This document shows, one piece after another, positions 26,870 through 32,148 of a stretch of 40,930 bases of DNA (position 1 is its first letter; every line of letters begins with the position of its first letter). Where the stretch lies: assembly GCA_030425505.1 (NCBI GenBank), contig JAUIAB010000025.1, positions 1-40,930 on the forward strand, given 5' to 3'. The stretch comes from Bacteroidia bacterium (GTDB lineage: Bacteria > Bacteroidota > Bacteroidia > Cytophagales > Flammeovirgaceae). A program made the translations under genes and the position numbers. Below the pieces are notes generated by a model. The model was not told the origin of the DNA. It searched no databases and was given only the letters and a program-made list of their open reading frames with translations.

Positions 26870-27898
26870 ATGCGTAAAAAACTTATAGTACCTGATGGTT
26901 TACTGTACGTTACTGACGAAAAACCCGGAATAAGGAGGATAAAAAAGAAAACAGTATTTATCTATTTAGACCCTAAAAAAAAGGTAATAAAATCAAATAA
27001 AACTCTAAATAGAATAAATAATTTAAAAATCCCTCCTATTTGGAAGAGTGTTTGGATTTGCATAGAAAGAAATGGTCACCTGCAAGCGACAGGAAGAGAT
27101 CTAAAGAAGAGAAAGCAATATATTTATCATCAAAAATGGAATGAGCACTCTTCTGCCAATAAATTTTCTAAACTTTTAGAATTTGGCAAAGCGCTATCCT
27201 CTATAAGAGAAAAATACAAGAAGGATTTAAATGAAAGTACGTGGTCTCAGAAAAAAGTTCTGGCGCTTGCCGTTGCTTTAATGGACGAGTTACACTTAAG
27301 AATTGGGAACGATTATTATTATCACAAAAACAATACACACGGATTAACCACACTAAGAAGAAAGCACTTAACTTTTGATAATAAAGAAGTCCAAATATCT
27401 TACAAAGCAAAAAAAGGGGTTCATAGAGAGATTGTGCTTTGCGATGAAAAATTATGTGAACTTCTAAAAAAATGCAGCGAACTTCCTGGTTACGAAATTT
27501 TTACGTACAAGGAAAATAATCAAACTAAAAAAATTGACTCTTCAGGTTTTAATAGCTATATAAATGTAAACGCTACACCAAATTTTACAGCAAAAGATTT
27601 TAGAACTTGGGCTGGATCCCTTTATTGTATAGAATTTATAGATGAAGCAGAGCAAATATGCCTGAAAAATAAACGAAGAAAGAAAGAAACTACTCTATTA
27701 AACCTAATAGCTAATAGATTAGGTAATACCATTTCTATATGTAGAGAGTATTATGTTCATCCATACGTTTTAAAGTTTTGCTTGGAAAATAATATGAAAG
27801 AAGTGAAAAAAGCTTTTGGAACAGATAAAAATTCTATGCTAAGTAGCACTGAGCAAATTCTATTGAAAATACTGACTAACCAAAATTTTACTTCTTAA
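26870..27898 (+). CDS. DNA topoisomerase IB, poxvirus-type
   Basis: Relaxes supercoils through a 3'-phosphotyrosyl intermediate without ATP. 342 residues, the size of bacterial TopIB. Signature residues: LRIGN (R144), a basic-hydrophobic KHL (165-167), KDFRTWAGSL (R245) and CREYYVHP with the likely nucleophile Y295 directly before VHP. The N-terminal clamp region (1-~100) contains PPIWKSVWIC and HLQATGRDLKKRKQYIYH. Bacterial TopIB genes are often found in environmental bacteria in accessory positions. It sits just upstream of the photolyase cluster. Confidence 0.93.
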   Translation: MRKKLIVPDGLLYVTDEKPGIRRIKKKTVFIYLDPKKKVIKSNKTLNRINNLKIPPIWKSVWICIERNGHLQATGRDLKKRKQYIYHQKWNEHSSANKFSKLLEFGKALSSIREKYKKDLNESTWSQKKVLALAVALMDELHLRIGNDYYYHKNNTHGLTTLRRKHLTFDNKEVQISYKAKKGVHREIVLCDEKLCELLKKCSELPGYEIFTYKENNQTKKIDSSGFNSYINVNATPNFTAKDFRTWAGSLYCIEFIDEAEQICLKNKRRKKETTLLNLIANRLGNTISICREYYVHPYVLKFCLENNMKEVKKAFGTDKNSMLSSTEQILLKILTNQNFTS

Positions 27899-27926
27899 AA
27901 GATCATCATAAAAATAATCAATTTTA

Positions 27927-27968
27927 AATGAGTATGTATATTCTCTTTTTGTAGAATATTTACTCATT
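27927..27968. terminator. Long imperfect hairpin after the topoisomerase gene
   Basis: AATGAGTA (27927-27934) pairs with TACTCATT (27961-27968), and ATATTCT (27938-27944) with AGAATAT (27953-27959), around an 8-nt loop; the two stems are separated by a TGT/T internal loop. This makes a 15-bp AT-rich stem 28 nt past the stop. No T-run follows, so termination is not certain; an operator is possible. Confidence 0.4.
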
Positions 27969-28058
27969 ATAAATATCTATAAAACACTATTTATCAGTTT
28001 ATTATAATTTAGTCACTCTTTTTGCACTCTTATATACATTAACTAAACATTAAAAGTC

Positions 28059-28223
28059 ATGATACGATTAATCATTATTTGTCTGGTAATTGCTCTTATA
28101 GCTGCAATTTTTGGTTTTGGAGGGTTAGCTGCTAGTGCCGCTGGCATAGCTAAAATCATATTTTATATTTTTGTTGTACTTTTCGTTATATCATTACTTG
28201 TACGTCTCGTTCGAGGAAAATAA
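28059..28223 (+). CDS. Small DUF1328-family membrane protein
   Basis: A 54-residue protein, starting [20 protein letters not shown] and ending VRLVRGK, with two hydrophobic segments around a [15 protein letters not shown] turn. This is the DUF1328 (YtjA-like) pattern, including the AAGIAKI centre. The family is widespread; some members are stress-induced, but the role is unknown. It stands alone between the topoisomerase gene and the DUF2256 gene, and its transcript probably ends at the inverted repeat at 28237-28287. Confidence 0.85.
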
Positions 28224-28236
28224 TTTTAAAATTAGT

Positions 28237-28293
28237 ATAGCTCTTTAGTTTTTTAATTCCCTAAAATTTTTATATCTAAAGAGCTATGTTTTT
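28237..28293 (+). terminator. Terminator of the DUF1328 gene
   Basis: ATAGCTCTTTAG (28237-28248) and CTAAAGAGCTAT (28276-28287) are perfect 12-bp complements around a 27-nt loop, followed by GTTTTTG. It starts 14 nt after the DUF1328 stop. The long loop is unusual for an intrinsic terminator. Confidence 0.5.
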
Positions 28294-28395
28294 GCTTCTA
28301 TTCCTTAACTAAATTTTCTACTTACCTACCTATCTAAGGCTTTATATAAGAGTTTATTAAACAATTTTACTTTAGTCGTGTTCTTTAATAAGCGA

Positions 28396-28536
28396 GTGAA
28401 AAAACAATGCTTCCCATCTAAAATTTGTATGACTTGTGATCGCCCATTTTCGTGGAGAAAAAAATGGAAAAAGTGTTGGAATGAGGTAAAGTACTGTAGT
28501 AAAAAATGCAGAATGCAAAGGAAAAAAGTGGTTTAG
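28396..28536 (+). CDS. Small DUF2256 zinc-finger-like protein
   Basis: A 46-residue basic protein read from a GTG at 28396: it starts MKKQCFPSKICMTCDRPFSW. C-x2-C (C11, C14) and C-x3-C (C34, C38), with the WRKKWKKCW and EVKYCSKKCR blocks, match the DUF2256 family, which probably binds zinc. A GTG at 28378 is an alternative start. The last 31 nt overlap the start of the cryptochrome gene in another frame, indicating translational coupling. From memory, DUF2256 genes often lie beside photolyase/cryptochrome genes, so a role with those enzymes is plausible but unproven. Confidence 0.8.
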   Translation: MKKQCFPSKICMTCDRPFSWRKKWKKCWNEVKYCSKKCRMQRKKVV

Positions 28537-29807
28537 TTTGGTTCACTAATAATCTAAGAGTATACGAAAACCCAGCGTTAAAATATGCAATAGAAGATAA
28601 TGATAGAGTAATAGGAGTATATTTTTTTGATCCGAGGCATTTTGCAGAAACAAAGTTTGGCTTCCGAAAAACGGGTTGTTACCGAGCAAAATTTTTGATA
28701 GAATCTATTAGTCAGCTCAAAAAAAACCTCGAACGCATTAATATTACCCTTCTAGTTTATTTAGGCAAACCTGAAGATCAAATTTCCTTTTTAGTAAAAG
28801 AATTTCAAATTAATGCTGTCTTCTTTCAAAAAGAATGGACGAGTGAAGAAGACGCTGTTATTAGAAATGTAAAGAAAAGTACAAGTCCTACCCTGTCTTT
28901 TAAAGGGTTTTACTCTCAGCTTTTATTCCATCCAGATGATATACCATTTGGAAAGAACTCTATACCTTATGTTTTTACTGATTTTAGAAAAAAATGTGAA
29001 AAGTATTGTGATATAAAGCCATTAGAGGAACTACACACAAAACTTCCTTACGAAAATAATATTGAAAATACTACCTCCATACCCAGCTTGAGAGAACTTG
29101 GCTTCAATGACTTCGAAATAGACAAAAGAACTGCTTTTCCTTTTACAGGAGGTGAAAACTCTGCAAAAAGCAGGCTAGAAGATTATTTTTTTGAATCCAA
29201 AAATTTGGCTATTTACAAAAAAACGAGAAATGGTCTTCTAGGAACAGAATATAGCTCAAAACTATCTGCATGGCTAGCTAATGGAAGCATTTCACCAAAA
29301 TATATTTATTGGAAAGTAAAAGAGTTTGAGGAGAAATACACTAAAAATGAATCTACGTACTGGCTTATTTTTGAGTTGATATGGAGAGATTTCTTTAAAT
29401 ATACTTCTATGAAGTATGGAAATGATTTTTTTAAAATAGGTGGAATTTTAAAGAAAGACTATTCTTGGCACAATAATCAAAAATGGATTGGTCAGTGGAT
29501 TAACGGGGAAACGAAAGAGCCTTTTGTAAATGCAAATATGCTTGAGTTAAAAAATACTGGCTGGATGAGCAATAGAGGAAGGCAAAATGTTGCATCTTAC
29601 TTTGCCAAAGAGTTGCATTTGGACTGGAGAATTGGAGCTGCTTATTTTGAATCTCTGCTGATTGACTATGATGTACATAGCAACTACGGAAACTGGATGT
29701 ATGTAGCTGGTGTAGGTAACGACCCAAGGGACAGGAAGTTTAACGTACAATTACAAGCAGAAAGATATGACCCAGATGGAGAATATCAAAAACTCTGGTT
29801 GAACTAA
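28506..29807 (+). CDS. Cryptochrome DASH
   Basis: Blue-light flavoprotein of the photolyase family; DASH members repair cyclobutane dimers in single-stranded DNA and may have signalling roles. 433 residues. The N-terminal alpha/beta domain starts GLVWFTNNLRVYENPAL (about residues 9-25). The C-terminal FAD-binding helical domain contains GLLGTEYSSKLSAWLANGSISP, WRDFFKYTSMKYG and the DASH-type end GNWMYVAGVGNDPRDRKFN. The start overlaps the DUF2256 gene by 31 nt and the next photolyase-family gene begins 18 nt after the stop, so the three form one unit. Confidence 0.93.
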   Translation: MQNAKEKSGLVWFTNNLRVYENPALKYAIEDNDRVIGVYFFDPRHFAETKFGFRKTGCYRAKFLIESISQLKKNLERINITLLVYLGKPEDQISFLVKEFQINAVFFQKEWTSEEDAVIRNVKKSTSPTLSFKGFYSQLLFHPDDIPFGKNSIPYVFTDFRKKCEKYCDIKPLEELHTKLPYENNIENTTSIPSLRELGFNDFEIDKRTAFPFTGGENSAKSRLEDYFFESKNLAIYKKTRNGLLGTEYSSKLSAWLANGSISPKYIYWKVKEFEEKYTKNESTYWLIFELIWRDFFKYTSMKYGNDFFKIGGILKKDYSWHNNQKWIGQWINGETKEPFVNANMLELKNTGWMSNRGRQNVASYFAKELHLDWRIGAAYFESLLIDYDVHSNYGNWMYVAGVGNDPRDRKFNVQLQAERYDPDGEYQKLWLN

Positions 29808-29825
29808 TAGACTACACTATTTATT

Positions 29826-31357
29826 ATGAAAACGCTTAGGTTAATTTTAGGAGATCAATTAAATATACAACACTCGTGGTTTAAGAATAGTAGCAAGAAG
29901 CACATCTATTGCCTTTTTGAAATGAGGCAGGAGACAGACTATGTAAAGCATCATATCCAAAAAGTAATTGGCTTTTTTCTTGCAATGCGTCAATTCGCAG
30001 AAGATCTGAAAAAGGATGGACACAAGGTAATTTATTTTAAAATTAGTGATGATAGAAATACGCAGAGTCTAGAAGAAAACCTATGCTTGCTCATCGAAGA
30101 AAATAATATAGAAAAGCTGGAATATCAGCTACCGGATGAGTATAGGTTAGACCAGCAATTATCTAAGTTTTGTGAAAAAGTGGATATTTCATCTCAAGCT
30201 TATGACACAGAACACTTTTATACCAAAAGAGAAGAACTAGCTGACTTTTTTAAAGGCAAAAAACAGCTTCTGATGGAAAGTTTCTATCGACATATGAGGA
30301 AAAAGCATGATGTTTTAATGGACGGAGATGAACCTGAAGGAATAAGTGGAATTATGATAAAAGCAATAGAAAAAAGTGGAAAGGAGATACTAAAATTCCC
30401 TATGCATATACCCAAAAAAGAGAAGTATCATCTCTGATTGAGGAGATTAGTAAATCAGGAGTTGATACCATAGGAAAAATAGAAGATACTATTTTCAGCT
30501 TTCCAATTTCCAGAGAAGAAACATTAGAGCAATTGGATTATTTCTGTGAAAACTTGTTAGTGCATTTTGGTGATTTTCAAGATGCTATGCATACTAAGGA
30601 AGTAAACTTATTTCACTCAAGGCTATCTTTTTCTCTAAATACCAAGCTTATTTCTCCTGTAGAAGTAGTTGATAAAGTAATTGGATATTATCGTGCTAAT
30701 AAATCAGATATTGATATTTCTCAAGTAGAAGGTTTTGTAAGACAAATTATCGGATGGCGAGAGTTTATGCGAGGTGTTTACTGGAAAGAAATGCCTGGCT
30801 ATGCTAACCTCAACAAACTGGAAAATTATAATAAGCTACCTGCGTTTTATTGGACTGGAAAAACAAAAATGAACTGTTTGAAAAATGCAATTACCAATTC
30901 TTTAGAAAACGCCTATGCCCATCATATTCAAAGATTGATGATAACTGGCAATTTTGCGCTTCTAATTCAAGTCAACCCTGATGAAGTAGACGAATGGTAT
31001 TTGGGAATTTATATAGATGCTATAGAATGGGTTGAAATCACCAATACGCGAGGGATGAGTCAATTTGCTGATGGAGGCATTATAGGCACTAAACCCTATG
31101 TATCTGCCGCTTCTTATATTAAGAAAATGAGTAATTATTGTTCTGGGTGCAAATATGACAAGAATAAAAGAGTTGGAGAGTCTGCATGCCCATTTAATAG
31201 TCTCTATTGGAATTTTTTAGATGATAAAAAGAAGCACTTTGAAAATAATAACCGTATGTCTATGATGATGAATCTATTAAACAAAATTTCAAAAAGTGAA
31301 CTGCTCGAAATAAAGGAAAGAGCTGCAAAAATCATAGAAAACCCTGATAACTATTAA
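29826..31357 (+). pseudogene. FeS-containing photolyase/cryptochrome (PhrB-like), frameshifted
   Basis: Member of the iron-sulfur bacterial cryptochrome/photolyase family, which includes (6-4) photolyases such as Agrobacterium PhrB. The N-terminal part (29826 to ~30419, ~198 residues, starting MKTLRLILGDQLN) and the C-terminal part (~30419-31357, ~312 residues) are in different frames. Joining them by re-reading one A in the A6 run at 30414-30419 restores a continuous protein of ~510 residues, normal for the family. The frame of the first part otherwise stops at 30435-30437. The four cluster cysteines are codons at 30875, 31139, 31148 and 31187, with spacings of 88, 3 and 13 residues, identical to C350/C438/C441/C454 of PhrB. 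So the break may be a recent mutation, a homopolymer sequencing error or a programmed -1 shift. Confidence 0.8.
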
Positions 31358-31461
31358 GTAAGTATTTTTTTAAACCCCTTCTTTTGCAATAACTTAAGAA
31401 TAATTAGCACAGTAGGTTCGTTTTAGTTATTATTACTCTTGATATTCCAAAAAGTGTGTTT

Positions 31462-32148
31462 ATGAAAAATGTTATTGTTTTAATCTGCTTTCTATTCGTT
31501 TCAACCTTTTCTTTTGGTCAAAGTTTTGAAGGGCATTTGATGTATGACCTCGAGTATGAAGGAGAGTCTTCTTACTTATTTAGTTCTATGTTTCCAGATT
31601 CGTATACTATGAAAATAAAAGAGGACAAGTCAAAACTGCAAATGGAAGGGGGAATGATGTCTTCTTTTGTTGGAAACTTTATTACAAACCAGTCTGAAAA
31701 GAGCAGCTATATGTTAATGCCTTCGCAAAAGAAAGCATACAAAATAAAACACTCAGAAGATGGTTTAGAAAAGGATAGAGGGAAGTTTGAAGTAGTTAAA
31801 ATGGACGGTACTGAGAAGATTGCTGGCTACAACTGTACCAAATATAAAGTAGTAGTTAAAATGAAAAACGAAGAGTTCATTACAAATATTTGGGCTTCTG
31901 AAGATTTAGATATTAAAATGCCTGAGATACAATCGGATCAATCTTTCTTTAAAACGTATGAAGAAATAGAAGGGTTTCCTGTGAAGATAGAACAGGATAT
32001 GGCTAAAATGAATATGCCCTTTTCTCTTACGATTGTATTAAAAGAAGCTAAGGAAACCAGCATTGATGATAGTGAGTTTGAAGTACCTAGTGACTTTGAA
32101 ATTATAGATGGTATGCCCAATTTGAAAAATATGATGATGGGAAAATAG
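31462..32148 (+). CDS. Exported DUF4412-like protein
   Basis: 228 residues from the ATG at 31462 (a GTG two codons upstream is possible). Signal peptide 1-20, ending FSFGQ. The body has alternating strand-like segments typical of the DUF4412/LolA-like exported proteins of Bacteroidota: GHLMYDLEYEGESS, MKIKEDKSKLQMEGG, a central KIAGYNCTKYKVVVK and EFITNIWASEDL. The last ~30 residues are Met-rich. Function unknown. It lies 104 nt after the photolyase gene. Confidence 0.65.
   Translation: MKNVIVLICFLFVSTFSFGQSFEGHLMYDLEYEGESSYLFSSMFPDSYTMKIKEDKSKLQMEGGMMSSFVGNFITNQSEKSSYMLMPSQKKAYKIKHSEDGLEKDRGKFEVVKMDGTEKIAGYNCTKYKVVVKMKNEEFITNIWASEDLDIKMPEIQSDQSFFKTYEEIEGFPVKIEQDMAKMNMPFSLTIVLKEAKETSIDDSEFEVPSDFEIIDGMPNLKNMMMGK

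Follow-up and report, generated by a model that had tools for sequence, protein, structure and literature searches.

DUF2256, a 46-residue cysteine-bearing protein whose gene is conserved in bacterial photolyase clusters and often overlaps a photolyase gene

The stretch of DNA considered here, subsequently 'the window', consists of 40,930 nucleotides (nt) from a Bacteroidia bacterium of order Cytophagales (contig JAUIAB010000025.1). Its subject is a small protein of family DUF2256 (PF10013), the gene for which overlaps that of a cryptochrome DASH (Cry-DASH), with a gene of the iron-sulfur (FeS) photolyase type (PF04244) following. An initial annotation had described these as a three-gene unit, and the unit is real, all three genes being present. 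DUF2256, viewed more broadly, recurs in bacterial photolyase clusters as a conserved gene on the strand of its neighbours, frequently overlapping the next one, and it is found almost only in genomes bearing photolyase-type genes. Its partners in those clusters are photolyases of several classes, a flavin reductase, the TIGR03643 protein, a short-chain dehydrogenase/reductase (SDR), and sometimes FolE. A functional link between DUF2256 and photolyase genes is strongly supported, that is, by neighbourhood, strand, overlap, and co-occurrence. As to what DUF2256 does, we put the probability at roughly 45% that it is a co-translated, general accessory of photorepair, binding nucleic acid or else protein located on it.

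Neighbourhoods were read at 219 loci, i.e., 139 sites from genomes of the order together with 80 named loci. The former are 139 of the 141 order sites outside of the window genome (a second G170 copy, on the same stretch, and a remnant in G186 having been dropped), with 15 of the 139 having under 3 kb on one side. The latter are the best 80 of at least 589, and consequently are biased toward the window's DUF2256; their taxonomic group labels were assigned by hand. The named loci served for building family profiles (matches at E up to 1e-8) via single-linkage clusters, which are broad, so that SDR and ABC1 counts are loose, and labels of neighbour families rest on one member each.

Within 7 kb of DUF2256, 60 of the 139 order sites and 53 of the 80 named loci have a photolyase gene of one kind or the other. 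Chance, by an arithmetic based on about three photolyase matches per 4–5 Mb genome, would supply these at about 1 percent of sites, i.e., 1–2 of 139, or at a few percent for the smallest genomes. The neighbourhood survey proposed with the initial annotation as a check on its suggestion thus returns a clear enrichment. With distance limited to 250 nt and strand to that of DUF2256, a photolyase gene still is seen at 49/139 order sites and 45/80 named loci, versus none on the opposite strand in either set. Broken down by group, the named loci with a photolyase gene within 7 kb are 38 of 47 from Bacteroidota, 7 of 13 from Alphaproteobacteria, 4 of 6 from Gammaproteobacteria, 2 of 3 from Betaproteobacteria, 1 of 5 from Verrucomicrobiota, the single one from Acidobacteriota (1/1), and none from Cyanobacteria (0/4) or Myxococcota (0/1). 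That these genes are neighbours by chance is an idea to which we give practically no credence: a single overlap, as seen in the window alone, would prove little, but the surveys of co-occurrence, of 7-kb neighbourhood, of strand, and of downstream gene together refute it.

Co-occurrence was assessed using an order-wide draw of 194 genomes, with profile matches taken at E up to 0.001. DUF2256 was found in 139 of these (138 above cut-off, the other being the G186 remnant), the photolyase domain FAD_binding_7 in 175 (5 of which are below the family's cut-off), and PF04244 in 106. FAD_binding_7 is matched in every one of the 139 DUF2256 genomes, though only weakly in G026 and in G072, and DUF2256 is seen in 0 of the 19 genomes without FAD_binding_7 (Fisher test, 2.9e-12, with independence overstated as these genomes are related). 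The corresponding tally for DUF2256 and PF04244 is 94 genomes with both, 45 with DUF2256 only, 12 with PF04244 only, and 43 with neither (Fisher test, 8e-9, overstated in the same manner). A phylum-level draw of 148 genomes, 6 of which already were in the order set, shows FAD_binding_7 in 49 of 50 DUF2256 genomes, the exception (G272) having a partial DUF2256 match; 49 of these 50, and 84 of 93 FAD_binding_7 genomes, are above cut-offs, with G262, G267, and G328 among the weak FAD_binding_7 matches. Outside of the order, 43 genomes have both, 1 has DUF2256 only, 44 have FAD_binding_7 only, and 54 have neither. Among 14 control genomes, DUF2256 is present solely in Caulobacter vibrioides and Synechococcus elongatus, both of which also possess FAD_binding_7 and PF04244.

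Genes in these clusters frequently overlap. Measured from the earliest in-frame ATG, a choice that can exaggerate overlaps, and with genes lacking such an ATG excluded (1 of 18 and 2 of 57, respectively), 15 of 17 FAD_binding_7 genes directly following DUF2256 overlap it, as do 32 of 55 FeS-type genes. In 15 of those 32 the overlap is 4 nt, which is the commonest extent. Within the window, the DUF2256 gene occupies positions 28396–28536 of the forward strand and encodes, from a GTG start, the 46 residues that had been ascribed to it (PF10013, E 1.3e-18, 67.3 bits versus a Pfam gathering cut-off of 25), though as a family member it is among the lowest scoring of the order (65.8 bits in the order-wide search). 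Another GTG lies farther upstream in the same open frame, at 28378; the start at 28396 is preferred because the family's N-terminus (KK..LP.K) fits it. The overlap of the end of this gene with the start of the Cry-DASH gene, at 28506–28536 (forward strand), is 31 nt just as first described, and two loci of Polaribacter and one order genome have exactly this overlap too (L062, L106, and L151).

The Cry-DASH itself, at 28506–29807 on the forward strand, is a protein of 433 amino acids (aa) and of a short class. Cry-DASH proteins generally bind FAD along with an antenna, and serve in action upon DNA or instead in light sensing. Model TIGR02765 is matched over positions 2–428 of 431 (E 3.9e-150; 500.5 bits versus an NCBIfam cut-off of 317.05), as also is PF00875, whereas PF03441 (FAD_binding_7) is matched at positions 3–150 of 203 only, the C-terminal part of that model being without match. 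Residues 9–432 align to PDB 6kii and 1np7, chains which are 489–490 long. The window protein, that is, is not of the long form, as the C-terminal end of the FAD-binding domain is absent from it. A tree of short Cry-DASH proteins places the window's together with those of Polaribacter (support 96/87), inside a six-member set (100/99) that includes also Flavobacterium sp. RSP15, G008, and G070. DUF2256 overlaps the Cry-DASH start in all six members, by 25 to 55 nt, and the window's arrangement therefore is a conserved feature of this clade.

From the frequent overlaps, with 4 nt being commonest, it might be argued that the small open reading frame (ORF) is a leader peptide which merely couples or tunes photolyase translation. 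The encoded protein, however, is 46–69 percent identical to those of 55 loci spanning several phyla, with 14 alignment columns invariant, and DUF2256 is kept also where no photolyase gene is near. We consider a role solely as leader peptide to be highly improbable.

Which photolyases accompany DUF2256 varies. Directly downstream, meaning within 250 nt on the same strand, there is an FeS-type gene at 29 of 139 order sites and 28 of 80 named loci, and a FAD_binding_7-type gene at 10 and 8, respectively; the photolyase directly following DUF2256 is of FeS type, that is, in 57 of 75 cases. DUF2256 and then FeS photolyase therefore is the commonest motif, from which the window differs in having a Cry-DASH gene inserted between the two. 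Directly upstream are found FAD_binding_7 photolyases (20/139 and 14/80) as well as flavin reductases (24/139 and 8/80). Neighbours within 7 kb include TIGR03643/DUF2805 (36/139 and 23/80), flavin reductase (PF01613; 32/139 and 18/80), SDR (25/139 and 11/80, these being among the loose counts), FolE (PF01227; 2/139 and 8/80), and, less frequently, DUF2071 and an epimerase-DUF2867 protein. Several classes can be told apart among the FAD_binding_7 proteins of these neighbourhoods: one of about 498 aa, at 50 loci; the short Cry-DASH class, at 28 loci and in the window; one of about 373 aa, at 27 loci; one at 11 loci, to which the second photolyase of the window genome also belongs; and a few others. 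The suggestion initially made, that DUF2256 acts with its neighbours, consequently divides in two: its general part, a link to photolyase genes, is upheld, but a partnership specific to Cry-DASH is not, given how often the FeS type follows, that at least three FAD_binding_7 classes besides Cry-DASH also adjoin, and that numerous sites have no photolyase nearby. As several photolyase classes adjoin, DUF2256 tracks the process rather than any one enzyme, though leaning toward the FeS type. A partnership strictly with the FeS type was considered and rejected, since 45 of the 139 DUF2256 genomes lack PF04244 and 12 of the 106 PF04244 genomes lack DUF2256.

Alternatively, DUF2256 could be a cofactor helper, one that aids flavin reduction or loading, or the assembly of the antenna or FeS cluster of photolyases. 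The predominance of FeS-type genes directly after DUF2256 is what such a role would suggest, as too are the flavin reductase and FolE genes among its neighbours. The FeS-lacking DUF2256 genomes just noted nevertheless speak against this, as does the adjoining of FAD_binding_7 photolyases, and the modelled fold of DUF2256 (below) is not known to be that of a cofactor carrier. We regard this role as quite unlikely.

Four cysteines are found in all 219 of the DUF2256 proteins. They had been described as two C-x-C pairs, which needs correcting, as in the window protein they are C-x2-C (residues 11 and 14) and C-x3-C (residues 34 and 38). These cysteines, along with a PF-x-WRKKW core, occupy columns that are invariant or nearly so over the 56 rows of an alignment, though with Tyr in place of the core's first Trp in some members from the order. 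The proteins are basic, with net charges ranging from +5 to +14 (median +9, n = 219), the window's being +14. An AlphaFold2 model built with the 56 rows (pLDDT 86.7, pTM 0.57) suggests a one-zinc finger of treble-clef or treble-clef-like form, and fingers of this style bind protein or nucleic acid, the fold leading no further than that. Foldseek ranks YacG in rows 1–4 (best E 0.75), with MYND and FCS fingers as rows 6 and 7, while the best row from VIA-align is an FCS finger (PDB 2w0t, Z 3.7 over 38 residues); ribosomal, pre-60S, and MYND chains rank behind the YacG and FCS rows. These structural matches are numerically weak, yet they are mostly to small zinc fingers of one style. With Z below 5, only a common small-finger arrangement is supported as regards likeness to FCS and ribosomal fingers. 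By sequence, the best PDB match has an E of just 0.26, and a Pfam profile search with the window protein returned nothing but PF10013 at E up to 0.01. A search for fusions found 10 long open frames, which carried PF10013 alone.

How might a general photorepair accessory, our preferred reading of DUF2256, operate? The protein would be made together with photolyases under threat of light or ultraviolet (UV) radiation. Its conserved PF-x-WRKKW face might then bind nucleic acid, that is, damaged DNA or a repair complex upon DNA, or instead bind protein located on that DNA. As a small, basic accessory it could in this manner help photolyases of more than one class. In the window genome DUF2256 is the gene that is read first, and ribosomes ending its translation may re-start on Cry-DASH. 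The link to photolyase genes is a first strong functional lead for this widespread, uncharacterized family, the proteins of which are about 46 residues long.

A number of observations weigh against this reading. DUF2256 is missing from 36 of the 175 FAD_binding_7 genomes of the order and from five of the seven control genomes with that family, one of the five also having PF04244, and photolyases therefore work without it. Conversely, there is no photolyase within 7 kb at 79 of the 139 order sites and 27 of the 80 named loci, all 4 cyanobacterial ones included, and single plasmids of Pantoea and of Spirosoma have DUF2256 with no annotated photolyase in the 5-kb flanks. Genome G072 possesses DUF2256 with just one weak FAD_binding_7 match (4.9e-6) and no PF04244, and G026 has only a weak FAD_binding_7 match (8.0e-5) besides its PF04244. 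No ORF from the 219 loci joins DUF2256 to any of eleven family profiles, and no photolyase fusion was found among them. The putative binding face is not constant, with R[KR]KW present in 215 of the 219 proteins but its extended form, P[FY]-x-[WY]-R[KR]KW, in 198, and the structural matches, with a Foldseek E of 0.75 and Z of 3.7, are weak.

A rival reading is that DUF2256 is co-expressed with photolyases under light or UV stress, i.e., as a companion within a regulon, but acts elsewhere, whether on RNA or, in a YacG-like manner, by binding gyrase or some other enzyme of DNA. DUF2256 often stands beside TIGR03643 or flavin reductase rather than photolyases, and its top four Foldseek rows all are YacG–gyrase complexes. 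YacG is described, in PMC10886550, as a stress-induced, gyrase-protecting zinc finger in which a Trp insertion is critical. Furthermore, one of the plasmids, discussed next, has DUF2256 beside a gene for an SOS-response-associated peptidase. Set against these points, PF10013 is the sole profile that matches at the threshold employed, and start/stop overlaps along with near-strict co-occurrence are tighter than a loose regulon requires. We view such companionship as the next likeliest reading after that of an accessory, a possibility to be taken seriously, if not a probable one.

Plasmids carry DUF2256 as well, it being found on 132 plasmid records, 57 of which are from Pantoea. Five plasmid regions were opened, two of which are those from Pantoea and Spirosoma mentioned above. 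On a Salinivibrio plasmid, an annotated photolyase gene overlaps DUF2256. That of Acinetobacter piscicola has a cryptochrome/photolyase gene, then DUF2256, and then TIGR03643 on the other strand. The Thioclava plasmid has no annotated photolyase within 5 kb of DUF2256, which here lies directly before the SOS-response-associated peptidase gene (L259:4989-5785), an arrangement that possibly represents a second link with DNA repair.

A bolder version of the accessory reading is that DUF2256 serves as a dedicated subunit of photoreactivation, delivering photolyases of several classes, FeS (6-4) photolyases above all, to damaged or single-stranded DNA, or holding them there. We consider this to be rather doubtful. 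If true, however, then light-driven DNA repair would gain in DUF2256 its first protein partner of a general kind, with photolyases usually being regarded as stand-alone enzymes.

The third gene of the window's unit is broken. It had been placed 18 nt after Cry-DASH and as extending to 31357, and while there is indeed a start codon at 29826, from it there is not a single open frame to that end. The frame beginning at 29826 instead stops at 30437 (forward strand; 203 aa), remaining in frame with the FeS photolyase up to about 30341 and then being out of frame until the stop. PF04244, a model of 224 positions for a protein of about 510 residues, is matched at its positions 1–170 by 29838–30341 and at positions 171–222 by 30341–30490 in another frame, with the first frame alone scoring 208.2 bits versus a cut-off of 22.1. 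The continuation, at 30341–31357 of the same strand, has a start codon only from 30533, such that a C-terminal ORF at 30533–31357 shares this second frame; its best PDB matches are 7ykn/8a1h, 9hnk, and 4dja. Four cysteines of this second part align with those of solved FeS photolyases (alignment to 7ykn), cysteines which we take to be the ligands of the FeS cluster.

This frameshift falls within what in relatives is a PEGGKWNYD stretch, which is in one frame in 4 of the 5 relatives shown (the motif was not located in the fifth, L074). An unbroken PF04244 match is present in 102 of the 106 PF04244 genomes of the order, the remaining 4 being the window genome, G102 (two pieces on one contig), and G138 and G143 (pieces on different contigs). 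The frameshift consequently is not a conserved mechanism. A programmed frameshift was considered and is ruled out by these same unbroken matches and by the motif being in one frame in relatives; the interruption reflects either a mutation local to this genome or a fault of its assembly. The window genome is the sole member of its genus among the genomes compared. A second PF04244 gene was not found in this genome, which is 95.7 percent complete, though it has one further FAD_binding_7 photolyase, on another contig. The FeS gene beside the window's DUF2256, in short, is interrupted.

Other features of these loci may be noted as well. FAD_binding_7 proteins of about 370–420 aa, comprising a class of 27 loci and a class of 3, recur inside of DUF2256 clusters, and the five of them that were scanned (L049:10360-11610, L050:11923-13086, L085:3495-4622, L042:10138-11349, and L101:10143-11291) show no Pfam match to the N-terminal photolyase domain. 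TIGR03643/DUF2805, another small and uncharacterized protein, is found beside DUF2256 even where there is no nearby photolyase, e.g., L073:9681-9953 and L260:5150-5404, both on the reverse strand, among others. Two loci, L108 and L196 (G170), have two DUF2256 copies each, and genome G073 has three. Upstream of DUF2256 in the window, on the same strand, are genes for a topoisomerase IB (26870–27898) and a small DUF1328 protein (28059–28223), neither of which has a blastp match (E up to 1e-4) among ORFs of the 219 loci. Rfam gives 0 matches at gathering scores within 27800–31600. Promoter-like sites number 17, versus a mean of 12.2, and terminator-like sites 1, versus 1.2, using a consensus that may not suit the phylum. 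Phage records, searched at E up to 0.01, yielded nothing.

The photolyase link of DUF2256 is real and widespread, and no paper on it was found in the literature searched, with subscription titles mostly outside of that search. The accessible parts of texts concerning DUF2256 make no mention of photolyases, nor does a photolyase appear in the accessible part of a text on TIGR03643/DUF2805/DUF3253 (PMC3597751). PMC8612006 reports PF10013 for 31 percent of Xanthomonas that are pathogenic and 57 percent of those that are not (corrected p 0.08).

Among known systems, DUF2256 has been grouped with TRASH-type zinc fingers (PMC4047054, as available in part). The window protein is a clear member of the family so grouped, with the four cysteines and the same length, and Pfam describes that family as 'uncharacterized'. 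YacG (PDB 4tma) likewise is a small finger protein, it heads the Foldseek rows, and it is stress-linked, its finger acting by binding GyrB (PMC10886550, accessible part). The match between the two nonetheless is weak, with an E of 0.75, about 20 percent identity over 37–40 columns, and a Z of 3.5. Nor does the window's DUF2256 belong to the YacG family by profile, PF10013 alone being matched (E up to 0.01) although Pfam presumably has a model for YacG as well. The FCS finger (PDB 2w0t) and the fingers of ribosomal and pre-60S chains, which probably are of L24e type, resemble the DUF2256 model with a Z of 3.7 over 38 residues at best.

As for the photolyases, the last 57–58 residues of the solved Cry-DASH proteins 1np7 and 6kii have no counterpart in the window's Cry-DASH. 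The FeS (6-4) photolyases PhrB (4dja) and FeS-BCP/CryPro (7ykn/8a1h) match both halves of the window gene, cysteines aligned, which differs from them in being split by its frameshift. Comparable in gene arrangement is an operon of Synechococcus sp. PCC 7335 that UV-B induces and that has two photolyase genes, overlapping by 11 nt (PMC9649867). No small zinc protein is named for that operon in the part of the report available, whereas the overlapping of photolyase genes is a feature which it and the DUF2256 clusters have in common.

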